This document shows positions 15,819 to 60,730 of a stretch of DNA of 60,730 bases, in pieces. The notes below the pieces were generated by a model, which saw only the letters and a list, made by a program, of their open reading frames with translations, was not told the origin of the DNA and ran no database searches. This DNA is from Betaproteobacteria bacterium. GTDB lineage: Bacteria > Pseudomonadota > Gammaproteobacteria > Burkholderiales > Burkholderiaceae_F. Each line of letters begins with the position of its first letter. Positions within the stretch are counted from its first letter, which is position 1. The position numbers and the translations under genes are program-made. Location: positions 1-60,730 of the forward strand of contig VBCK01000124.1 in the NCBI GenBank assembly GCA_005882215.1. The letters are read 5' to 3'.

Positions 15819-18142
15819 CCCGCGCGTTCCAGCCGGATCGGCCCGAACATCGGACCCAGCGCACTGGTGGACGCGTGCCCGGCCGGGACCCGGACCACGC
15901 CGTCCGGCAGGCGCGAATCGACCCCGCATTCGAGCAGCGCCACCGCCGAACCCTGCCGCACCCACGCTCGATCCCCGCGCGCCAGGCCGAAACGCTTCAA
16001 GGTCGCCTCGTTGGCCGTTGCCCGCGGCGGGCGGGCGTCGGCCGTTTTCTGCAGGGACAAAGCGCGGCGCACCAGCGCGTCGGTCCAGTAAATCGGTACA
16101 TCGGCGATGCGTTCGGCATCAAGGCCGGCCGGCGCCTCGGACGAAAGCGCCGGGGCGACCCTGAGGTCGTTCGACAGCCAGGCCGACGGAATCGCCGGCA
16201 ACGCGCACTCGCGCACCTGCTCGGGCGATTCGTAGTCGAATCCCGCCAGCCCCAACAGGTTTCCGAGCACGCGCAGCACTTTCCAGCCCGGCCTGGCCTC
16301 GCCTTGCGGGTGCGCAGCGCCGTTGAAGCTCTGAACCCGGCCTTCGGTGTTCACGAACGTTCCGGCCGTCTCGGCGAACGGCGCAATCGGCAGCAGCGCA
16401 TGCGCGTACTCCATCGCTCCGTTGCGATAGGCGCTGCACGAGACCACGCACTCGGCCGCCGCCAGCGCCTTCGCGGCCAGCGCCGGATCGGCCGTGTCGT
16501 ACTCGGGCTCGCAGTTCCACAGCATCAGCACCGGGCGCGGCCGCTCGAGCATGGCGCGCGCATTCAGCCCCCCGCGCAACGGCCGGGCGCCGGCAAGGTA
16601 ACCGCCGACGCTGTTGGCGCCCTCCCCCAGCACCCCCATCCGGGCCCCGACCGCTTCGGCGATCCATTGCGCCCAGGAACCGATCGACGCCGCCTGCGGA
16701 TGCTGGATCGCCGCGTTACCCAGCAAAACGGCCGAATTCGCTCCCGAACACAGGCTGTCGGCGATCTTGCGGGCGATCTCACCCGGTTTCACGTCGGCGG
16801 GCGCGGCCAGGCCCTTGATCTGCGCCACCGCCGAGGCGATCTGCGCAAGCTGCACGGTCCAGCCCGAGGGCGCCGTGATCGCGCGATGGGCCACGTTCAT
16901 CAGCGGATCATCGTCGACCGCGTGCACGACGCTGAGCTGGCAGCCGTGCCCGACCGCATCGCGCAGGCGCACCGCCATCAGCGGGTGGTCCTTGCGCAGG
17001 AACGAGCCGACCAGCAGAACGCGGTCCAGGCGGTTCAGCGCGGCCACCGGCATGCCGAGCCACGGGGCGCCACGCCGCACCGCGTCGGCCGAAAAGTCGG
17101 TTTGCCGCAGCCGAAAATCGATGTGATCGGAACCCAGCGCGCGCGTCATCTGGGCCAGAAGGAACATTTCCTCCAGCGTGCTCGCCGGCGACACCAGCGC
17201 GCCGATCGAGTCGCCGCCCTGGCGCGAACGCGCTTCGTTCAGCGTCGAGGCAACGAAATTCAGCGCCTCTTCCCACTCGACCTCGCGCCAGCCGCCCGCG
17301 TGCCGCAGCATCGGATGGGTCAGCCGATCGGCCGCGTACAAGCCCTCGTAGGAGAAGCGGTCCCGGTCCGACAGCCAGCACTCGTTGATTTCCTCGTTTT
17401 CCAGCGGAACCACCCGCATCACCTGCTGAGCCTTGACCTGAACGATCAAGTTGGAACCGAGCGAATCGTGCGGGCTGACCGACTTGCGCCGACCCAGCTC
17501 CCAGGTGCGGGCTGCATAGCGGAACGGCTTGCTGGTCAGCGCTCCGACCGGGCAAATGTCGATCATGTTGCCCGAGACTTCCGAGTCGACGCTGTGGCCG
17601 AGGAACGACAGGATCTCGGAGTGCTCGCCGCGCCCGGCCATGCCGAGTTCCATCACGCCGCCGATCTGCCGGCCGAAGCGCACGCAGCGGGTGCAGTGGA
17701 TGCAGCGGGCCATCTCCTCGGCCGCAACCAGCGGCCCGATGTCCTTGTGAAACACCACGCGCTTGGGTTCCGTGTAGCGCGACGCCGAAGGGCCGTAACC
17801 GACCGCGAGGTCCTGCAACTGGCATTCGCCCCCCTGATCGCAGATGGGGCAATCGAGCGGATGGTTGATCAGCAGGAACTCCATCACGCTGCGCTGCGCC
17901 TCCTTCGTGCGCTGGCTGGTCGTGTGCACTGTCATGCCGGCCGCCACAAACGTGGCGCAAGCGGGCATCGGCTTGGGGACTTTCTCGACTTCCACCAGGC
18001 ACATCCGGCAGTTGGCCGCGAGCGACAGCTTCTTGTGGTAGCAAAAGTGCGGAATCAGGATGTTCAGCCGGGCGGCGGCCTCCAACACGGTGGTGCCCTC
18101 GGGCACCGACACCTTCGTTGCGTCGATCGTCAATTCGATCAT
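15815..18142 (-). CDS. nuoG: NADH-quinone oxidoreductase subunit G
   Basis: A 775-residue iron-sulfur subunit. The N-terminal ferredoxin domain carries the [2Fe-2S] N1b ligands ([21 protein letters not shown]), then His/Cys ligands of N5 ([25 protein letters not shown]) and the N4 cluster motif ([17 protein letters not shown]...[12 protein letters not shown]). A degenerate molybdopterin-oxidoreductase domain without evident cofactor residues follows. It lies 54 bases after the nuoF stop. Confidence 0.96.
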
Positions 18143-44499: not shown

Positions 44500-46293
44500 T
44501 CATTCGTCGCCGGCAAGCGTAAACGCAATGAACGCATCCCCAACCGGGTTGGGCGGGAAGTTGTTTCTATCGGGCACGTTACCGCCGAATGCGTTCGCAA
44601 TGTACTCGCGCCCGTTCACCATGTAAGCCACCGGATTGGACTCGGCTCCGCCTACGAAGTGAAGGCTGGGATCGGCGGGTCCGTCGAAGGTCCACAACAT
44701 CTGGCCCGTGCGCGCATCCACGGCGTGGAACTTGCCATTGCCTTCGCCAAAAAAGACCAAGTCACCGGCAACCAGCACCCCCGATTTTGCCGGCTGGTCA
44801 ATCCGGATCTTCCACTTTACCTTCCCGGTGTTGGTATCAGTGGCTCCATACAAACCGAAGTTGATCACGCCCTCTTGCGGAGTGACTTCGTCGAACGTGG
44901 AGCCGAGGAAGAGCCCGTTGGCGTTCGGCCCGGTGTTGGAGGGGTTCGTCTGGAACGTCGTGGGTTCATAACGTGTGCCGTAATACACGAACCCGGTGCG
45001 CGGACTGTACCCGGCCGGGTTCCATTCGCATCCGCCGTCATCGCCGGGAACGATGAGGTAAAGCTGTTCCTGAGGGACGGTCCATTCAGGCGCCAGCTTG
45101 ATACCGGGGAAGGCTGCAGTCAGCTTCGTGGTGTCAATCGTCCCTGGCACGAAGTCCAACGGCGTCAACGGCTCTACCGTCGATACCGGCTGCGTCGAAG
45201 AGGCATTTTGCCAACTCGGATCGGTAGGTACGGCAACCTCATTTACTGGAAATATGGGCTCGCCGTTCCTGCGATCGAGAATGTAATAGTTTCCGTTCTT
45301 GCTGCAGTGGCCGAGCGCGGGAACGGTGGTTCGCTCGCCGCCTTCTCCCTTCTTCGTGACTGGAAACAGCACGATGGTTTGCGCACTGTCGTAATCCCAG
45401 AGGTCATGATGGGTCTCCTGGAAATGCCAGCGAGGCTGTCCAGTGGCGATATCAAGAGCAACGATGGAGGTTGCATAGAAGTTGTCGCCCATTCGGTCGA
45501 TACCGTTGATGTCGGGACCCGCGTTGCCGGTATTGATGTAGAGCAACTGCAGCGAGGGATCGATCGCGGGCGAATTCCAAACCGCTGCCCCACCCGTGAG
45601 AAAGGAGTCCCCGGCCCAACCGCCTCCTGACGTGGTGCGGAACCTCCATAGCTCTTCGCCCGTGTGGGCGTCGAAGGCGGCCACCTGGCCGCGGACTTCA
45701 TACTCACCCCCGGATGAGCCTACGATGACCAAGCCATGGACAACCACAGGGGCCATGGTCAAAGCGAAGCGGTCGTGATAATCGACCACCTTTGTTTTCC
45801 AGGCTACGTGGCCGGTCTCGGCATTCAGGGCTACGAGATAGCCGTCCAACCTGCCCAGATAAACTCTCCCCGGAGCGAATCCAACCCCGCGGCTAACGCG
45901 GCCGCAGCAGATTTTGATGTCGCCAAGCGGCGGCATTTCCCCCGCAATCTCGGTGGGCTTGTATGCCCAGATTTGCTTCCCCGTCGCCGCGTCAAGGGCA
46001 AACACGTTGCTGTGTCCATCCACGATGTACATCGTGCCGTTGTGGACGATCGGAGATGCTTGAAGTTCTGCCAAAGGATCCAAGACACCCGTGTGGAACA
46101 CCCACGCTACTTTGAGGTTGTGCACGTTCTTGGGGTTGATCTGGTCGAGGTTCTGGAAACGCGTGTTGGCGAGGTCGTTGCCGTACGACAGCCAATTCAC
46201 ATTCTGGCCCGAAGCCGTCATTGCAACGGCCGCGAAAATCGCCAACAGAATGAGCGGGCGCAGGACGCGGTTGCTGCTAGCCCTTCCTTTCAT
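44500..46293 (-). CDS. periplasmic PQQ-dependent alcohol dehydrogenase-type quinoprotein
   Basis: A 597-residue eight-bladed propeller quinoprotein. A signal peptide (MKGRASSNRVLRPLILLAIFAAVAMTASG) is followed by NWLSYGNDLANTRFQNLDQINPKNVHNLKVAWVF, the PQQ family start. The vicinal disulfide pair Cys-Cys (DIKICCGRVSRGVGFAPG) and tryptophan-docking repeats (FALDAATGKQIWAYK, VALNAETGHVAWKTKVVD, AFDAHTGEELWRF) are visible. There is no C-terminal cytochrome c domain. AGGGGG precedes the ATG. GC content is visibly lower than in neighbouring genes. Substrate unknown; no pqq genes are in the window. Confidence 0.88.
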   Translation of the reverse strand: MKGRASSNRVLRPLILLAIFAAVAMTASGQNVNWLSYGNDLANTRFQNLDQINPKNVHNLKVAWVFHTGVLDPLAELQASPIVHNGTMYIVDGHSNVFALDAATGKQIWAYKPTEIAGEMPPLGDIKICCGRVSRGVGFAPGRVYLGRLDGYLVALNAETGHVAWKTKVVDYHDRFALTMAPVVVHGLVIVGSSGGEYEVRGQVAAFDAHTGEELWRFRTTSGGGWAGDSFLTGGAAVWNSPAIDPSLQLLYINTGNAGPDINGIDRMGDNFYATSIVALDIATGQPRWHFQETHHDLWDYDSAQTIVLFPVTKKGEGGERTTVPALGHCSKNGNYYILDRRNGEPIFPVNEVAVPTDPSWQNASSTQPVSTVEPLTPLDFVPGTIDTTKLTAAFPGIKLAPEWTVPQEQLYLIVPGDDGGCEWNPAGYSPRTGFVYYGTRYEPTTFQTNPSNTGPNANGLFLGSTFDEVTPQEGVINFGLYGATDTNTGKVKWKIRIDQPAKSGVLVAGDLVFFGEGNGKFHAVDARTGQMLWTFDGPADPSLHFVGGAESNPVAYMVNGREYIANAFGGNVPDRNNFPPNPVGDAFIAFTLAGDE

Positions 46294-46758: not shown

Positions 46759-48627
46759 TTAGTCCTTGAACGGCGGCGCCGCGCGCAGCACTTCGTCGAT
46801 CGTGGTCAAGCCGAGCACGACCTTTTCGGCGCCCGATACGCGCAGCGAGCGCAGGCCGTCGCGCGCCGCCTGCTCGCGCAGCTCCTGCAGCTCCGCCCCG
46901 CGCGCGACCAGCAGCCGGATCGGATCGGTCACCACCAGCAGCTCGACCAGCCCGGTGCGTCCCAGATAGCCGGTGCGGCGGCATTCCAGGCAACCGACCG
47001 GGCCGTAAATGGTCCGCGGCGGCGCCGAGCGCCAGGGGGCCACCAGCTCGCGCCACAGGGCCTGGTCGGGGCCATCCTGCGGCGCCTTGCAGCTCGGACA
47101 CAGGGTACGTACCAGGCGCTGCGCCAGCACGCCGATCAGCGTCGCATTGACCAGGTAGCGAGGAACGCCCAGTTCGACCATGCGCGCCACCGAGGAGGCC
47201 GCATCGTTGGTATGCAGCGTCGAGAAAACGAGGTGGCCGGTCAACGCGGACTGCACCGCCATGTCGGCCGTCTCGCGGTCCCGAATCTCGCCCACCATGA
47301 TCACGTCGGGATCCTGCCGCATCAGCGCGCGCAGACCGTCGGCAAACGTCAGGTCGATGCCGGGCTGCACCTGCATCTGGTTCAGGCTTGCGTCGACCAT
47401 CTCGATCGGATCCTCGACCGTGCTGACGTTCACCTCGTCGGTGGCCAGTTGCTTCAGAGTCGAGTACAGCGTGGTCGTCTTGCCCGAGCCGGTCGGGCCC
47501 GTCACCAGCACGATGCCGGACGGGCGACGGATCAGTTCCGACCAGATCTTCGCCTCCGCATCGGAAAAGCCGAGCTCGGCGTAGCTGCGCACCACGACCT
47601 CGGGATCGAAGATCCGCATCACCAGCTTTTCGCCGAACGCGGTGGGCAGCGTCGACAGGCGGATTTCCACCTCGCGGCCTCCAGCCCCGCCGGCCCGCGT
47701 CTTGATGCGCCCGTCCAGCGGCCGCCGCCGCTCGACCACATCCATCCGGCCCAGCAGCTTGATGCGGCTGACCATCGCATGCATCACGCCCGGCGGCACC
47801 TGGTAGACCTGATGCAGCACGCCGTCGATCCGGAAGCGCACGACGCCCTGGTCGCGCTTGGGCTCCATGTGGATGTCGCTGGCGCGCTGATCGAACGCGT
47901 ACTGCAGGATCCAGTCGACGATGTGGATCACGTGCGCGTCGTTGGCCTCGACCTTGGAGCCGAGCTCGACGAGCTGCTCGAAATTGCTCAACAGATTGGT
48001 GGTACCGGCCTTGGTCGCCCCCTTCACCTGCTGCGCCAGCTTGTAGAACTCGGTCGTGTAGCGGGCGATGTCGACCGGATTGGCGACCACGCGCTGCACG
48101 GTCTTCTTGGAGATCTGTTCGATCTCGCGCACCCAGTCGTCCAGGAACGGCTCGCAGGTGGCCACCACGATTTCGGTGGTCTTGACCGCGATCGGCAGAA
48201 TCGAATACCCGGTGGCATAGGCGCTGGACATCACGTCCACCACCCGCGTGAAGTCGACCCGCAGCGGATCGATGTGCTGGTACGGCAGCTTGACCTTTTC
48301 GGCCAGCCATTGCGTCAGCGACTCCAGATCGAGCAGCCGGCGCTGCGCATCCGGAGTGCGGAAATTCATTTCGGCCAGCAGCGCGATCGGGTGCCCAAGC
48401 CGCTCGCGGTCGCCGATCGCGAACACCCGTTCAGAATCCGATTGCGACAGCCACCGGTCGGCCACCAGTTGCCGGACCACGTACGCGAGCGGCAGCCGGC
48501 CGCTGATCGGAGCCTGGACCGGTTGGCGCGATTGCGCCGCGCGCTCCGCTGGTGCGCTGGCCGCACCCTCGGGCGGCGTCGCGCGCCGCGACCGCTGTTG
48601 CGCCGGCACCCGGGCCGCGTCGCTCAT
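46759..48627 (-). CDS. PilB/GspE-family secretion or pilus ATPase
   Basis: A 622-residue hexameric ATPase of the type IV pilus/type II secretion class. N-terminal MshEN-like region (about 60-200), then the GspE core with GPTGSGKTT Walker A (377-385), VEDPIEMVDASLNQMQVQPG (Asp box), MRQDPDVIMVGEIRDRETADMAVQSALTGHLVFSTLHTND (Walker B and His box), and the tetracysteine zinc site CPSC..CLECRRTGYLGR. The N-terminal 40 residues are Ala/Gln/Pro-rich. No other pilus genes lie nearby. Its ATG overlaps the upstream DUF1631 stop as ATGA. Confidence 0.93.
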   Translation of the reverse strand: MSDAARVPAQQRSRRATPPEGAASAPAERAAQSRQPVQAPISGRLPLAYVVRQLVADRWLSQSDSERVFAIGDRERLGHPIALLAEMNFRTPDAQRRLLDLESLTQWLAEKVKLPYQHIDPLRVDFTRVVDVMSSAYATGYSILPIAVKTTEIVVATCEPFLDDWVREIEQISKKTVQRVVANPVDIARYTTEFYKLAQQVKGATKAGTTNLLSNFEQLVELGSKVEANDAHVIHIVDWILQYAFDQRASDIHMEPKRDQGVVRFRIDGVLHQVYQVPPGVMHAMVSRIKLLGRMDVVERRRPLDGRIKTRAGGAGGREVEIRLSTLPTAFGEKLVMRIFDPEVVVRSYAELGFSDAEAKIWSELIRRPSGIVLVTGPTGSGKTTTLYSTLKQLATDEVNVSTVEDPIEMVDASLNQMQVQPGIDLTFADGLRALMRQDPDVIMVGEIRDRETADMAVQSALTGHLVFSTLHTNDAASSVARMVELGVPRYLVNATLIGVLAQRLVRTLCPSCKAPQDGPDQALWRELVAPWRSAPPRTIYGPVGCLECRRTGYLGRTGLVELLVVTDPIRLLVARGAELQELREQAARDGLRSLRVSGAEKVVLGLTTIDEVLRAAPPFKD

Positions 48628-51059
48628 TCGGCCTGCTCGAAGCGCGCGGCGAGCTCGGCCACCCGCTTCGGCGACTTCTCGAACTCCGACACGACGGCAT
48701 CAACCGCCCGGCGCATCAGCGGCTCGGACTCCAGCGGCCGGATGTAGCTTCGACGCAGGTATGTCTTGATCAACTCGGGCGACATCACGTGTGCCTTGTT
48801 CTCGACGCCGCTGCTGAACATGAACAGGGTGCGCAACGGACTGATCCAGCGCAGCCGCGCCTTGATGAATTGAGTGCCGTCCCAGATCTCGAACCAGGTA
48901 CCGCGCGTCCATGAGGCGATGTCCCGGTCGATCTTCGCTTCGGCGCCCCGGTCCAGCTCCCCGATGTCCGTCAACGGCTCGGGCACGCTCAAATCGACCT
49001 CGTGCTCCGCCGCGGCCCGCATCAGCGCGTCGGTCGGAACCTTGATTCCCCCCGGCACCGTCGTCATGGGGAAGGCTCCCGTGAGCTGGATTCCCTCCAG
49101 CTTGACGCGAAGCTCCGAGGACTGCAACGAATGCTTGATGTAGGTCGCCTGGTCGGTCGGTTTGACGGCCATCGCGTGAGACGCCATCAGCTGCTGGAAG
49201 AACTCGTCCTGATCGCGCTGGGCCATCCGTATCAACGCCAGGCCGTCGCGCACGGTCCGGGTTATCGAAGGAATCAACGCCACCAGGCGCTTGCGCTCAT
49301 CGGCAGTGGCCTTCGGCTGCACGCTCCAGACGATCTCGTGAATCACCTCGCGGAAGCGCTTCGAATAGCCCTTGGTTTCGTCATCCCTTACGGTCGCCGC
49401 CACCAGCACCTGGACCCAGGGCCCGAGTAGAAATTCGCGCAGATACCCTTCCAGATCGACCCGGTCGAAAGCGCGCCGCACCTGGATCGTCGTGTTGATC
49501 GTCAGGATCTCGCGCTTTTCGGCCTCCTCGAGCGCCCGCTTCGCGCGCGACACCGGATCGGCATCGCGCGGACGGATTTCGCCCAGGTAGGCATCGAACT
49601 CGGACAGCAGCCGCTCGAACACGCTGACGTCGCGGTCGAACTGGATCAGGACCTCGCGCACGACCCGGTCGACTTCATCCCGGTAGCGCTCGTTTTCGTC
49701 CCCGTACGGCTCCCAACCGGCCGAGGCGTTGGCGATCCGATCGATCAGCCGCCGCGCCGGATGCGAGCTCGAGGCGAAAAAGGCCGCATCCATCAGCGCC
49801 GCCTTCAGCACCGGGAACTGCAGGCGCGACAGCAGCGCCTTGATTTCGGCCGGCACTTGCTGGTCGCGCAACATGTGGTCGAACATCATGCCGACGATCT
49901 CGATGGTCAGCTTGTCGACCGTACGCGAGGACTGCGACAACAGGTGCTCGCGCCAGGCACTGATCGAGCCGGCGGGCGTGCCGGAGAACACGGCCCCCTG
50001 TACACCCTGCAATCCGAGTCCCTGCAGCTCGCTGATGGCCGCCATCAGCGGTGCCCCGACCGGTCCGGGCACCGACATCGGTGGCATCGCATAGCCTCCC
50101 ACGTTGGCCTGAAGTCGCGCCAGCAGGTCGGACAGCACTTTCTGCGCGTCCGCACCCGAGATCGCGGGCCCACCGGCCACCGCACCCGAGCCGATGCCGT
50201 GACCCGCCCCGGCGCCTGCGCCCGCGGGGCCACTCGTGCCGCCGTTCGCCAGTCCGCCGGGAAACCCCGGCCCCCCACCGCCGGTGCCGCCCGCGGCGCC
50301 TGCCGCCGCCGGCGACGCTGAAGGATCACCGGCCGCAGCGCGACCGGTGGCCGGTGCCGCCTGCCGGCTGGCCAGATCGCGCCAGATCTGCTTGGCGTCG
50401 ACACCGTGCGTGCGGAAGTGGTCCAGCAGCGCCAACTCCACGCGAGCCAGCTCTTCCGCGAACGGCCGCTCGAACTGGGCCAGGCAAAAGGCCCACGCAT
50501 CGCGATGCAGGTTCACGTCCTCGATCGCCGCCACCAGCGCCGGCATGAACCCGTCGGGCCCGTACGGGTTGTCGCAGTCGCGCAGCGAAGGGCGCCCAGC
50601 GAGGAAACCGACCACCATGTTCAGGTCGCGCAGCGGCTCGTCCACGATCCGTCGCATCCGGCGCGCGCTGCGCGTGGCGATCGATTCGACGGCGTCATCG
50701 GCCTGCTGAACCAGCGACATCGAGTCGATGTCGACCGGGACCACCTGCGTGCTGGTCTTCACGACCAGCAGTTCGGCGATCATCCGGTCCTGCTGCTCGG
50801 GTACGCGCGCCAGGAACGCCTGGCGCAGTTCGCCGGCCCGGACCGACAGCATCCGCTGCACCAGCGGGGTCCCGATGTCGAAATCCCAACGCGCCGCCAG
50901 CGATTCGCGCACGCTGTTGGCGATCCCGTCGAACGACCCGGACAGCAGCTCGCAGGAAATCGCCGCCGCAGACTTCAACAGCGCCTGCGTCTGGCTGGCG
51001 GAAAGGTAGGGCAGAGCGCTCTGCGAGCGCGCACCGTCGAACGGCACCGTAGAGTTCAT
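48624..51059 (-). CDS. DUF1631 family protein, paralog 1
   Basis: An 811-residue protein of unknown function, highly charged and helical. After about residue 250 there is a Gly/Ala-rich linker (AAAGDPSASPAAAGAAGGTGGGG...). The second half has KLTIEIVGMMFDHMLRD..VPAEIKALLSRLQFPVLKAALMDAAFFASSSHPARRLIDRIA, the DUF1631 core. The C-terminal RGTWFEIWDGTQFIKARLRWISPLRTLFMFSS...MSPELIKTYLRR resembles a PilZ-like barrel. Start ATG at 51059 fits; an in-frame start at 51194 adds an unconserved leader. It is translationally coupled to the PilB-like ATPase. Confidence 0.85.
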   Translation of the reverse strand: MNSTVPFDGARSQSALPYLSASQTQALLKSAAAISCELLSGSFDGIANSVRESLAARWDFDIGTPLVQRMLSVRAGELRQAFLARVPEQQDRMIAELLVVKTSTQVVPVDIDSMSLVQQADDAVESIATRSARRMRRIVDEPLRDLNMVVGFLAGRPSLRDCDNPYGPDGFMPALVAAIEDVNLHRDAWAFCLAQFERPFAEELARVELALLDHFRTHGVDAKQIWRDLASRQAAPATGRAAAGDPSASPAAAGAAGGTGGGGPGFPGGLANGGTSGPAGAGAGAGHGIGSGAVAGGPAISGADAQKVLSDLLARLQANVGGYAMPPMSVPGPVGAPLMAAISELQGLGLQGVQGAVFSGTPAGSISAWREHLLSQSSRTVDKLTIEIVGMMFDHMLRDQQVPAEIKALLSRLQFPVLKAALMDAAFFASSSHPARRLIDRIANASAGWEPYGDENERYRDEVDRVVREVLIQFDRDVSVFERLLSEFDAYLGEIRPRDADPVSRAKRALEEAEKREILTINTTIQVRRAFDRVDLEGYLREFLLGPWVQVLVAATVRDDETKGYSKRFREVIHEIVWSVQPKATADERKRLVALIPSITRTVRDGLALIRMAQRDQDEFFQQLMASHAMAVKPTDQATYIKHSLQSSELRVKLEGIQLTGAFPMTTVPGGIKVPTDALMRAAAEHEVDLSVPEPLTDIGELDRGAEAKIDRDIASWTRGTWFEIWDGTQFIKARLRWISPLRTLFMFSSGVENKAHVMSPELIKTYLRRSYIRPLESEPLMRRAVDAVVSEFEKSPKRVAELAARFEQAE

Positions 51060-51193
51060 TCGGGCGTGAAGCCAGGAGGGCCAACCTGCCCGGCCACCGA
51101 CTGTAGCCGCACAGTGTCGCAAGTCAAGCTGGGCAAAGAGGCTGAAATACGCCTCAACTTTTTCGAACGTCCGGCCGATATCGCGGCCCCGCA

Positions 51194-51985
51194 TCAGAGG
51201 GACAAACCCTCCTGCGGCCGCAGGCGATCGCCGCCGGGGCCGGCGTGGCGGCGCAAGCCCCTGAGCCAGCGGCGCGCCGGAAGGCCCGAGCCCGCCTCGA
51301 TGGCCAGCGCGCGCTCGCGCAACTGCGGCGGCTCGATCCGGATCGTCGGGCCGACGGCAGCCACCGCGATCCGATTTCCAGCGCGCGCCTCATCCAAAAC
51401 GATGACCCGCCCGTCAAAAGCGGCCGCGATCCGGTCCAGGCTCGGTCCGCAGCGGCGCCCAAACAGGTTGAACGACGCGATTCCCGGCTCTCGCAGGGCC
51501 TGGCGGCATGCAAGGTAGAAAAACCGATCGTCGTATACCGGTCCGCGCGCGCGGGCGTCGTACAGGTCCACTTGCAACCAGTCGGAAAATCCGCTCCTGC
51601 GAGGCCGCTGCAGAAACGCCAGCGCGTCATCGCACACGACCGTCAGGCGGCGGCCCTGCTCGGGCAGAGCGAACCACCGATGCGCGGCCCCGATCACGGT
51701 CGGGTCGAACTCGACGACCACCGTTTCAGCAAACGGCAAATGGCGATGGCAGAACTTCGTCAGCGCCGCCGCGCCCAGTCCCAGCTGCAGTACCCGGCGC
51801 GGACGGGGCAACAGCAGCAGCGGCACCATCATCTGCTGTTGATACTCGAGCTCGAGCCGGTACGGATGTGCGATTCGCATCGCGCCCTGGATCCACTCGG
51901 TCCCGAAGTGCAGGTACCGGACCCCGCGCGACTCGGACAGCGTGATGCTGCTAGCTGGAGGCGTCGGTCCCTGGCTGTGCACCAT
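51194..51985 (-). CDS. spermidine synthase-like SAM-dependent methyltransferase
   Basis: A 263-residue Rossmann-fold protein. It begins with a beta hairpin (SRGVRYLHFGTEWIQGAMRIAHPYRLELEYQQQMM), typical of the polyamine synthase family, then the cofactor motif RRVLQLGLGAAALTKFCHRHLP and VVEFDPTVIGAAHRWFALP, with DDALAFLQR and the DLYDA motif. Catalytic Asp of spermidine synthases is not obvious, so a methyltransferase or aminopropyltransferase-like role is open. Its start lies 35 bases inside the 3' end of the second DUF1631 gene. Confidence 0.82.
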   Translation of the reverse strand: MVHSQGPTPPASSITLSESRGVRYLHFGTEWIQGAMRIAHPYRLELEYQQQMMVPLLLLPRPRRVLQLGLGAAALTKFCHRHLPFAETVVVEFDPTVIGAAHRWFALPEQGRRLTVVCDDALAFLQRPRRSGFSDWLQVDLYDARARGPVYDDRFFYLACRQALREPGIASFNLFGRRCGPSLDRIAAAFDGRVIVLDEARAGNRIAVAAVGPTIRIEPPQLRERALAIEAGSGLPARRWLRGLRRHAGPGGDRLRPQEGLSL

Positions 51986-54365
51986 GCTTCAAGTCGAACA
52001 TCACCGCGTCGACCGCCCGCTCGAACAGCGGCGCCGATTCGACCGCAACCAGCCAGCCCGCCTGCAGGTAGGCAACCAGAGTATCCGGGGACAGTGAATG
52101 AGCGCGGTCGCCGCCCGCGTTTGTGAACAGGTAGAGCGCTTTCTTCGGGCTGATCCAGCGCAACACGACCCGCTCCATTTGCCCGGTATTCGCGCGCAGG
52201 TCGAACCACAGACCGCGGCTGAAGCCTGCAATCGCATTCAGGGCCTGCTGCGGGTCCATCGCCGCGGGCAAGGGGTCCTGCTCCGTGGGCGCCGACAGGT
52301 GGGTCACGCCGGGCGCACCGACCGCAAGCGCGTGCCGGACCACGTCGTCCGATACCTTGATCTGGTCCAGCGCGACGTCGCTGGTGTCGGTCGGGATACG
52401 GAAGCCGTCCAGCTTGATCCGGACGGTGCTTGGCGTGATCTGGGGCGGCGAGCCATGCGCGAGCTCCAGCGCTTTGACCGCGCTGGCGTGCGAATTCATC
52501 AGCCGACCGAAGAACTGCTGGATCCGCTCGGACGGCCACTGCATCCGGGTCAGGCCCTCGCGCAGCACGGCCAGCACGTTCGGGATGGTTTCGATCATCC
52601 GCTTGCGGTCGCCCGGATTGATCTTCGGTTGAACGCTCCACACCAGCTCGGGGATCGTATCCAGATAGCGACGCACCAGAGCCGGCTCGGTCTTGTCGCG
52701 CGTCGATGCCTCGACCAGGACACGGACCCAGACGTCGAGCAGGAAATCGCGCAGGTACGACTCCAGTTGCACGCCGTCGAAAGCGCTGCGCACCTGCATG
52801 GTGGCCTTGATCGCGAGAATCTCGCGGTTCTCGGCCTCGGCCAGCGCCCGGCGCGCCCGTGTGACCGGATCGTCGTCGCGGGTGCGCTCCTCGTCCAGGA
52901 ACCGGTCGAACTGTTCAAAAGACTGCTCGAAGGCCTTGGAGGCATCGGCCGGGGAATCGGTCACGGAATCGACCGCGCCGCGGACCTGTTCGAAGTAGCG
53001 CCGGTTGTCCTCGCCGTCAACCGACCAGCCGATCGAAGTGCTGGCAATCCGGTCCAGCAGGCGCCGCGCCGGTTGGCGAGGATCGGCGAACAGCTCCGGA
53101 TCGCCGAGCGCAACCTTCAGAAGCGGAAATTGCAGCCGCGCCAGTTGTTCCTTGATCGCATCCGGAATGTGCCGGTCGCGCTGGATCCGGTCGAACAGCA
53201 ATCCGACCAGCTCGATCGTCAGCTTGTCGATCTTGCGCGAGGCGGTGTCGATCAGACCCTTGCGCAGCTCGGCCGTATGGGCGGCATCCACCCCGGCAGC
53301 CGGCCGCCCGGCGGCCGCGGCGGCGGCGGAGGCGGCGGAGGCGGTCATCCGCAGCGCGTCGTTGATGGCCGATATCAACGCCGGATCGAAACTCCAGCCG
53401 GATCCGGGTGCGCGCGACTCGAGAAACGCAACCCGATCGGCCCGCGTCAGCGCCGCCCCGCCCGGTGTCGCCGACGCTGCGCCGGCCATGGGACCCGTGC
53501 CGGCGGTGCCGGCCGCAGGAGCGGTGCCGGCCGTGGCAAACGCGCCCGGCTGCAAGCGTTCCAACAGACTCAGCAACATTGAGCTCGACTGCGCGTCGCC
53601 CAGCGAGACGATCTCGTTGCCCGTGCGCTCCGCGCCGGATGTTCCCGTCGCTGCCCGGCCGCGAGCCGCGCCGTGCGTGCCCACCACCGTGCTATGCCAG
53701 ACCGGGACGGCGTCGCTCGCGCCACTGTCGGCCAGTCGCTTCTCGATCTGCTTGTAGGCTTGGCCGACGACGCGACTCAGTCCGGATGAAACCAAGCGCA
53801 TCAGGGGAACCACGTCCGGCTCGGCGATCGCGATGTGACGCAACGCACCCGCGATGGCCCGCACGAACAGCGCGATCCGGAACGGCAGGTCGGAGTCGCG
53901 CAAATCGACATCGTGAAGCAGGTTGATCAGCCGTAGCTTGACCGCCGCGAATTCGGTATCGACCGAGTTGCGCAGGCGCGCCGCGCATTGATCGATGGCC
54001 GCGTCGAACTCCGAATCCTCATGCCCGATCAGCGACAGAGCGCGCGCGCCTCCGCCTTCGGACCCGCCGGCCTCGACGAACGAGCCGATCGATGCGATCA
54101 GCTCCGGGTGCAGCGCCTCCAGATACGCTTGCACGAACGCCCGATCGCGTGCCAGCACCGCCTTGACCCGCTTCGAGTCGGCTTCGTCCAGCGACTTGGC
54201 CAGCGGTCCCAGCGTCTCGATCAGCGCGGTCAGCAGCTGTTCTTCGACAACGGTTCGAACCGGCGCCCAGCAGTCTTCGAACAGGCGGCGATATCGAGCC
54301 CGGCGGCGCGACGAGTCGGACCGCTCCGTCGCCTGGAGCGCACGGTCTGGCGTTTCCTCGTTCAT
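51951..54365 (-). CDS. DUF1631 family protein, paralog 2
   Basis: An 804-residue protein that is paralogous to the one at 48624. The shared blocks are KLTIELVGLLFDRIQRDRHIPDAIKEQLARLQFPLLKVALGDPELFADPRQPARRLLDRIA, ALAEAENREILAIKATMQVRSAFDGVQLESYLRDFLLDVWVRVLVEAS and the C-terminal RGLWFDLRANTGQMERVVLRWISPKKALYLFTNAGGDRAHSLSPDTLVAYLQAG. An Ala/Gly-rich low-complexity segment separates N- and C-halves. Function unknown. The C-terminal unit again looks PilZ-like but without a visible c-di-GMP RxxxR motif. Confidence 0.85.
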   Translation of the reverse strand: MNEETPDRALQATERSDSSRRRARYRRLFEDCWAPVRTVVEEQLLTALIETLGPLAKSLDEADSKRVKAVLARDRAFVQAYLEALHPELIASIGSFVEAGGSEGGGARALSLIGHEDSEFDAAIDQCAARLRNSVDTEFAAVKLRLINLLHDVDLRDSDLPFRIALFVRAIAGALRHIAIAEPDVVPLMRLVSSGLSRVVGQAYKQIEKRLADSGASDAVPVWHSTVVGTHGAARGRAATGTSGAERTGNEIVSLGDAQSSSMLLSLLERLQPGAFATAGTAPAAGTAGTGPMAGAASATPGGAALTRADRVAFLESRAPGSGWSFDPALISAINDALRMTASAASAAAAAAGRPAAGVDAAHTAELRKGLIDTASRKIDKLTIELVGLLFDRIQRDRHIPDAIKEQLARLQFPLLKVALGDPELFADPRQPARRLLDRIASTSIGWSVDGEDNRRYFEQVRGAVDSVTDSPADASKAFEQSFEQFDRFLDEERTRDDDPVTRARRALAEAENREILAIKATMQVRSAFDGVQLESYLRDFLLDVWVRVLVEASTRDKTEPALVRRYLDTIPELVWSVQPKINPGDRKRMIETIPNVLAVLREGLTRMQWPSERIQQFFGRLMNSHASAVKALELAHGSPPQITPSTVRIKLDGFRIPTDTSDVALDQIKVSDDVVRHALAVGAPGVTHLSAPTEQDPLPAAMDPQQALNAIAGFSRGLWFDLRANTGQMERVVLRWISPKKALYLFTNAGGDRAHSLSPDTLVAYLQAGWLVAVESAPLFERAVDAVMFDLKHGAQPGTDASS

Positions 54366-60293: not shown

Positions 60294-60730
60294 TCAGCGC
60301 ATCAGGGACTTGTCGCGGCCGACTTCACGGCGGTCGGCGAACTCGTTCACGAAATCCTCGGCGCTCAACGGCCGCGCGAACAGGAAGCCCTGCGCCGAGT
60401 CGCAGCCCAGATGCTGCATCCAGGTCTGCTGGGCCTGCGTCTCGATGCCCTCGGCCGTCACGCTAAGGCGCAGGCTGTGCGCCATATCGATCACCGCCTT
60501 CACGATCGTCAGCGTCGTGGCGTCCCGCATGCAATCCACCGTGAAGCTGCGATCGAGCTTCAAGCGGCTGATCGGATGGTCGCGCAGATGCGACAGGCTC
60601 GAGTAGCCCACCCCGAAATCGTCCAGCGCGATTTTAACGCCGGCATCGCGCAGGCCAAGCAGGTTCTCGCGCGCCGTGGCGGTTGCGTCCAGCAAGCCGG
60701 TTTCGGTGACCTCGATCTCGATCTGGCCCG
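60294..60730 (-). CDS. EAL-domain cyclic di-GMP phosphodiesterase, C-terminal part, 5' end outside window
   Basis: The C-terminal 145 residues of an EAL domain. It includes the EVTET start strand, LRDAGVKIALDDFGVGYSSLSHLRDHPISRLKLDRSFT (metal-binding DD and loop 6), IVKAVIDMAHSLRLSVTAEGIETQAQ (Glu motif) and QGFLFARPLSAEDF. All residues needed for c-di-GMP hydrolysis that can be seen here are present. The upstream sensor and GGDEF parts, if any, lie outside the window. The 160 bases to parC hold nothing notable. Confidence 0.92.
   Translation of the reverse strand, partial: GQIEIEVTETGLLDATATARENLLGLRDAGVKIALDDFGVGYSSLSHLRDHPISRLKLDRSFTVDCMRDATTLTIVKAVIDMAHSLRLSVTAEGIETQAQQTWMQHLGCDSAQGFLFARPLSAEDFVNEFADRREVGRDKSLMR

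Follow-up and report, generated by a model that had tools for sequence, protein, structure and literature searches.

Organization of the Block

The window, i.e., the whole stretch of DNA analyzed here (a contig of 60730 bases), carries on its minus strand two genes for DUF1631 proteins (DUFup and DUFdown), a spermidine-synthase-like gene (MT) and a gene for a TfpB-like type IV pilus extension ATPase (Table 1). They run in the order DUFup, MT, DUFdown and TfpB, with a gap of 134 bases between MT and DUFdown and an overlap of 4 bases between DUFdown and TfpB. The initial annotation had described two DUF1631 paralogs of 811 and 804 aa and an MT gene overlapping the 3' end of the upstream one by 35 bases. 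Both open reading frames were found and belong to PF07793, and the overlap covers positions 51951-51985. The fourth gene had been overlooked; it encodes a T2SSE/MshEN ATPase (P0004) whose best NCBIfam match was TfpB. An alternative, longer frame of DUFdown has 856 aa, but this start is improbable, since in the closest ortholog (L066) the frame opens only about 5 codons before the 811-aa start.

Table 1. Features of the block, with positions in the window.
Feature	Position	Strand	Description	Evidence
DUFup (P0003)	51951..54365	-	DUF1631 paralog, 804 aa	PF07793, 336.7 bits
MT (P0002)	51194..51985	-	Spermidine-synthase-like enzyme, 263 aa	Pfam Spermine_synth, 25.4 bits
Promoter-like element TTGACT-16-TACAGT	51100..51127	-	Ahead of DUFdown	14/17 loci
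DUFdown (P0001)	48624..51059	-	DUF1631 paralog, 811 aa	PF07793, 362.3 bits
Predicted SH3/Tudor-like barrel and following helix of DUFdown	48684..48929	-	About residues 711-792	AlphaFold model
TfpB-like type IV pilus extension ATPase (P0004)	46759..48627	-	622 aa	NF053534, 847.5 bits

An EAL-domain gene had also been noted about 6 kb away. The distance was right (5.9 kb), but the gene could not be kept as a member of the block. Its open reading frame starts at 60294 and is truncated by the contig end (60294-60730), and a uracil-DNA-glycosylase-superfamily gene (UDG, by Pfam) and other genes lie in between, among them htpG, a divergent phzF-like gene and a topoisomerase A-subunit-like gene (named by eye). 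Because of this truncation and the divergent gene in between, we rejected the EAL gene as part of the module. On the other side, the gene behind TfpB encodes a PQQ-dependent dehydrogenase in the window (44500-46293) and a prolyl oligopeptidase in L066 (13242-15848). Since close relatives differ in this gene, TfpB is probably the last gene of the block, although nth is conserved at a greater distance. An Rfam search of the window gave no match.

Conservation of Gene Order

A scan with an alignment of the two paralogs, taking one genome per species, revealed 20 loci in 18 other genomes, all of Burkholderiales or of less precisely named proteobacterial MAGs. The gene order, which the initial annotation had left to be checked beyond this strain, was conserved: by tblastn, the loci read htpG-UDG-DUFup-MT-DUFdown-TfpB as far as the contigs reach, apart from the following absences. 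UDG was undetected by tblastn in L063 and L075. Of the 18 other genomes, 14 have DUFup in the block and three (L070, L072 and L073) lack it there, with UDG directly preceding MT, while that of L071 allowed no assessment. TfpB, counted from 840 bits or more, was present in 13 of 19 genomes (window included) and stood directly behind DUFdown in all 13. In the L071, L072 and L073 genomes (one of which, CP070661, is a single 3.7-Mb chromosome record) nothing scored over 456 bits with the TfpB model, and PilB/GspE-like and PilT-like genes are still present there, judged by score. In the L076, L078 and L081 drafts no TfpB was found elsewhere, and the contigs end before its expected position, those of L076 and L078 inside DUFdown. 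Identity to the window was 38-64% for DUFup, 51-72% for MT and 70-90% for TfpB; for DUFdown it was 45-79% over stretches of more than 500 residues, with two short stretches at 33% and 40%. L074 has a second, partial TfpB copy (17315-17761), which covers about 148 residues of the C-terminus and follows the complete copy at a distance of about 4 kb. The nearest pairs in the TfpB tree (e.g., window and L066; L063 and L075) were the same as in both DUF1631 clades.

This arrangement was not a general one. In a sample of 200 genomes of the order, TfpB was present in 94 genomes and DUF1631 in 84, and among the matches listed the two were adjacent in only one of the 94 TfpB-positive genomes, the window's own, so that DUF1631 beside TfpB was rejected as a general rule (listed places were compared by eye, with low-scoring DUF1631 matches outside the list, and 40 TfpB stretches were also read). 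The two genes co-occurred without adjacency, strongly in the order and weakly in the class. TfpB was found in 61 of the 84 order-sample genomes with DUF1631 vs. 33 of the 116 without it (Fisher p 8e-10), and in 27 of 75 vs. 33 of 154 in a class sample of 229 genomes (p 0.025; TfpB counted from 571 bits up), both tests being uncorrected for kinship and genome size. MT relatives occurred in 165 of the 200 order-sample genomes, mostly not near TfpB. Nevertheless, at least 8 other genomes, from three other family groups, have MT on the strand of TfpB and 68-292 bases upstream of it; these pairs were computed from the best 44 MT matches, and inspection of the other listed ones by eye gave no further pair. 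The surroundings were read in five of the eight genomes (two groups), and no DUF1631 gene stood next to the pair there. The simplest history would have TfpB joined first by MT and then by the DUF1631 pair; MT may have been linked to TfpB for longer than the pair has.

A Conserved Promoter-Like Element

In the gap that separates MT from DUFdown, the pattern TTGAC-16-TAnAnT was present in 14 of 17 loci, three copies deviating at one base, and the rest of the gap was unconserved by eye. The pattern was chosen after the window copy had been seen and its spacing was fixed at 16 in this count; in 500 single-base shuffles it appeared in a mean of 0.036 of 17 loci and in at most 2. When spacings of 15-19 were allowed, 12 copies were found in 15 stretches, all with 16. 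As a sigma-70-type element is conserved ahead of DUFdown, DUFdown and TfpB probably have their own promoter. It was rejected as a general TfpB promoter, since the stretches upstream of 40 other TfpB genes all lacked it. In the cluster it was missing only from L071-L073, which form one clade and whose genomes have no detected TfpB, and because they are one lineage the joint absence of promoter and TfpB counts only once. The element is also present in L076 and L078, in whose drafts TfpB was not detected. The L071-L073 lineage, with MT and DUFdown kept in the absence of both promoter and TfpB, is the most informative natural case for judging whether these genes form a module.

These data bear on a reading in which the DUF1631 pair and MT have a job of their own and stand beside TfpB merely through a stable htpG-UDG-...-nth stretch of the chromosome. 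We know of no pilus role for htpG, UDG or nth, and since these genes are kept in the region all the same, synteny alone is weak evidence of a common function. htpG and UDG are equally conserved in place, nth follows at some distance in 8 of the 20 loci, and the arrangement htpG-UDG-TfpB-nth without MT or DUF1631 exists in L086/L146 and L089, which come from two genomes of the same genus. Furthermore, MT-DUFdown can persist without TfpB, as L071-L073 demonstrate. However, the lineage without TfpB also lacks the DUFdown promoter, if only as one event; in the window, DUFdown shares 4 bases with the TfpB gene; and MT-TfpB pairs recur in other family groups. The different genes next to TfpB in the window and in L066 indicate that this chromosomal stretch is not uniformly stable. 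Taken together, we consider such chance company to be a serious possibility, if a rather doubtful one.

The TfpB-Like Motor and the Pilus Machine

P0004 scored far higher with the NCBIfam TfpB model than with those of GspE (510.8 bits) and PilB (493.6 bits), 2.5 bits under the NF053534 cut-off of 850; 10 of the 13 TfpB proteins of the cluster, the window's included, were over it. The PilB and GspE of the same genome reached only 453.9 and 440.2 bits with this model. In the class sample, among the matches listed, 57 proteins scored at least 737 bits, three scored 674, 590 and 571, and the others 512 or less. In a tree of TfpB sequences only, the 13 cluster sequences formed a single clade (SH-aLRT 100). 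By eye, P0004 contains GPTGSGKTT, RQDPDVIMVGE and CPSC...CLEC, which we take to be the Walker A motif, the acidic Walker B region and the CxxC...CxxC zinc motif of an active motor. By its sequence, P0004 is a TfpB-like ATPase with a predicted function in pilus extension.

The genome also encodes a pilus machine. A PilB (803.8 vs. cut-off 675.65 bits) lies elsewhere beside a PilC-like gene, whose protein is below its own cut-off, and coaE; two PilT/PilU-family genes stand in tandem (430.7 and 448.5 vs. 319.1); PilQ passes its cut-off (522.9 vs. 284.35); and there is a separate GspE with a GspF-like neighbor (701.8 vs. 630.25). With its own PilB, PilT/PilU and PilQ present, TfpB would therefore be a second extension motor beside PilB. 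Over TfpB residues 43-100, identity to the window was 56-62% in cluster TfpB vs. 23-34% in other TfpB; this N-terminal part differs most between the cluster and the others, which would agree with the adaptor role proposed below, yet it is the least conserved region in general. In PilB, the N-terminal region binds PilZ, according to the available part of one paper (PMC11656802).

The situation resembles that of Acinetobacter baylyi, for which we rely on an excerpt (PMC8213720). Its TfpB belongs to the same NCBIfam motor family, is a second motor besides a separate PilB in one genome and, like the TfpB here, is encoded outside the pilB-pilC operon; loss of both PilB and TfpB abolishes detectable transformation. 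The TfpB here has as conserved company the DUF1631 pair, the methyltransferase-like gene and the promoter element, whereas the excerpt names no such partners for A. baylyi (PMC8213720).

Family and Fold of the DUF1631 Proteins

Both paralogs score above the PF07793 gathering cut-off of 33.7, DUFdown covering profile positions 58-739 and DUFup 65-740 of 741. A search of the genome (4.55 Mb) found no third DUF1631 gene. In BLASTP the two aligned in their C-terminal half (306 bits, E 3e-96, 41% identity over 442 residues), and the C-terminal signatures that had been reported as common to them, RGxWF and WISP...SPxxLxxYL, are indeed found in both, the latter as LRWISP...SPxxLxxYL. In a quick tree of 100 DUF1631 sequences, the DUFup clade (15 sequences) and the DUFdown clade (17 sequences) each had an SH-aLRT of 100, and they were sister clades (SH-aLRT 97), separate from the canonical proteins found in other families. 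Two sister clades point to one duplication followed by shared inheritance. Neighboring DUF1631 pairs also occur in other families, at L126 (6472-8793 and 8896-11499) and at L121 (5915-8125 and 7557-10577, in overlapping frames), and no MT match was found between the paired genes of either. NCBIfam has a curated family taking in some DUF1631 proteins (NF058594, "PacR"), with which the two paralogs scored 86.7 and 71.6 bits, under the cut-off of 1200; among the matches listed in the open literature searched, no explanation of this name was found.

The AlphaFold model of DUFdown (32 sequences, mean pLDDT 78.5, pTM 0.48) predicts helical stretches at 21-234 and 303-632 with a disordered alanine/glycine-rich linker at 238-305, and at the C-terminus a five-strand barrel (722-775), in which a helix connects the fourth strand to the fifth; the pLDDT across residues 711-780 is 81-91. 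A separate model of the C-terminal unit yielded the same barrel (mean pLDDT 68.7, higher over the strands; pTM 0.54). In VIA-align, where a Z under 8 may reflect merely a common arrangement, the unit matched the SH3-like domain of myosin X with Z 7.0 (1.6 angstrom over 57 residues), and the full DUFdown model matched it with Z 6.9 (rmsd 1.5 over 55 residues). Other matches were the Tudor domains of Spindlin and TDRD3 and the translocation-signal domain of TraI. Foldseek alone gave no match with an E under 0.001 (best 0.013). Because the Foldseek E-values and model scores are weak, the fold class rests on the VIA-align Z of about 7 and on the agreement of two models, which have overlapping alignments. 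The C-terminal unit is thus modeled as an SH3/Tudor-like barrel, a shared shape that shows no function. For the helical core there was no convincing structural match among those listed for the full DUFdown model.

The initial annotation had suggested a PilZ-type barrel here, and the unit might then bind c-di-GMP directly. It is a small beta barrel, and the DUF1631 family is tied to c-di-GMP domains elsewhere (see next). However, structure prediction gave an SH3/Tudor-like barrel in both AlphaFold models instead. No PilZ entry was present among the structure matches listed, a list that excludes nothing alone. The PilZ profile PF07238 had no match in P0001, P0003 or 31 C-terminal members at E up to 10, and hhalign of the unit against four PilZ domains gave a probability of 0.1%. 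RxxxR and D/NxSxxG, the c-di-GMP motifs of PilZ, were not conserved by eye in the C-terminal alignment. Moreover, in DUF1631 fusions PilZ is a separate, N-terminal domain. Direct c-di-GMP binding by a PilZ-type barrel is therefore extremely improbable.

DUF1631 in Other Proteins

DUF1631 was found in 75 of the 229 class-sample genomes as well. We scanned 13 of 15 fetched long DUF1631 frames from relatives (1162-1488 aa), those left out being the second frame of L196 and the frame of L209. GGDEF and EAL follow DUF1631 in 12 of the 13, and a PilZ match precedes it in six, four of them over the Pfam cut-off. At L196-L208, PilZ (N-terminal, in some), DUF1631, GGDEF and EAL are joined in a single chain, and L196 has two long DUF1631 frames in tandem. 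Owing to these fusions, DUF1631 is to be regarded as a domain that c-di-GMP proteins carry elsewhere, PilZ being a distinct domain of its own, and a link of DUF1631 to c-di-GMP is plausible from the sequences. The earlier idea of a second-messenger or surface-sensing module gains indirect support from the adjoining pilus motor gene and from the DUF1631-GGDEF-EAL fusions.

The canonical gammaproteobacterial DUF1631 proteins belong to the same Pfam family as the paralogs here. They differ in lying on a separate side of the tree and in their surroundings, without a TfpB neighbor in the 20 stretches checked. A tie of canonical DUF1631 to the pilABCD block through nadC/ampD, an idea that comes from Pseudomonas, was not used as support: NadC and/or AmpD were near DUF1631 in 4 of 20 stretches, and PilB or PilC in none of them. 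PA4523 of Pseudomonas aeruginosa, which we take to be a DUF1631 protein, is one further point of reference. In the available parts of two papers, it adjoins ampD (PMC9782964) and goes up at biofilm dispersal (PMC13128677).

The MT Enzyme

MT exceeds the Pfam cut-off for Spermine_synth (PF01564; 22.9 bits) just slightly, its best PDB match is METTL13 (5wcj, E 2e-9), and spermidine synthases follow from 1e-6. Strongly conserved motifs are [YF]LHFG[TS].W[VI]QG.M, QLGLGA.AL and DW.QVD.YD. E. coli SpeE reads GGGDG, the Asp of which holds the amine of decarboxylated AdoMet; the window MT has GLGAAAL at this place, and GLGAA or GLGAG is present in all 17 cluster MT sequences covering the site (18 aligned). 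Where SpeE has Gln, MT has NLFG. The C-terminal domain of METTL13 (5wcj) is similar in both respects, with a glycine loop lacking the aminopropyltransferase Asp and an N-L motif at the Gln position, though METTL13 is eukaryotic and has eEF1A as its substrate.

If MT were a true aminopropyltransferase, the module might sense or make a polyamine that tunes surface behavior. Its Pfam score, the spermidine synthases next to METTL13 among its PDB matches and the retention of both Asp of the catalytic D-x-x-D (D-L-Y-D in the window) would agree with this. Nevertheless, the altered GGGDG motif speaks against it, and MT falls far below the cut-offs of both aminopropyltransferase models (NF003380, 163.1 vs. 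304; TIGR00417, 22.7 vs. 249.55). A better SpeE candidate (236.6 bits, itself just under the cut-off) is encoded elsewhere in the genome. We consider the polyamine route unlikely. With METTL13 as the best match, these low scores and the better SpeE candidate, a methyltransferase is the better guess, and MT is probably an AdoMet-dependent methyltransferase by its sequence. As to an anti-phage role, PADLOC gave weak matches only for MT and the ATPase.

Discussion

Our tentative reading, to which we lean with reserve, is that the block is an accessory control module of a second type IV pilus extension motor, TfpB. The conserved gene order, the same nearest pairs in the trees, the promoter ahead of DUFdown-TfpB and the pilus machine in the genome support it, while two facts count against it: most TfpB genes have no DUF1631 or MT neighbors, and one lineage keeps MT-DUFdown with no TfpB found. 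In such a module the two DUF1631 proteins would be cytoplasmic helical adaptors that bind TfpB, or TfpB together with the pilus base, and they would set when the motor engages, tying it to a cell signal. The input may be c-di-GMP coming from partner proteins and not bound by the C-terminal barrel. MT would modify a partner in the module, i.e., the motor, a DUF1631 protein or a pilus protein. As an analog we propose PilZ and FimX acting on PilB, where, in the available part of PMC11656802, accessory proteins in the cytoplasm control an extension ATPase of type IV pili; FimX is a GGDEF-EAL protein, as are most of the long DUF1631 proteins scanned here. The likeness concerns the mode of action, the DUF1631 proteins being large and helical with a predicted SH3/Tudor-like C-terminal barrel.

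In a bolder version of this scheme, a METTL13-like MT would methylate the motor or a pilus protein, and both DUF1631 proteins would read the mark with their Tudor-like barrels. We regard it as very unlikely, but if it were true, a second extension motor would be switched on and off by protein methylation.

Among the matches listed in the open-access literature, no paper was found that links DUF1631 or MT with TfpB, and the listed papers that name DUF1631 have titles on different topics. Its conserved place beside a pilus motor gene, together with the GGDEF-EAL and PilZ fusions, gives this widespread family a testable role. A dedicated partner set of TfpB would make the question of why some bacteria keep two extension motors directly testable, and the block suggests that its products help control the building of filaments that touch and grip surfaces.
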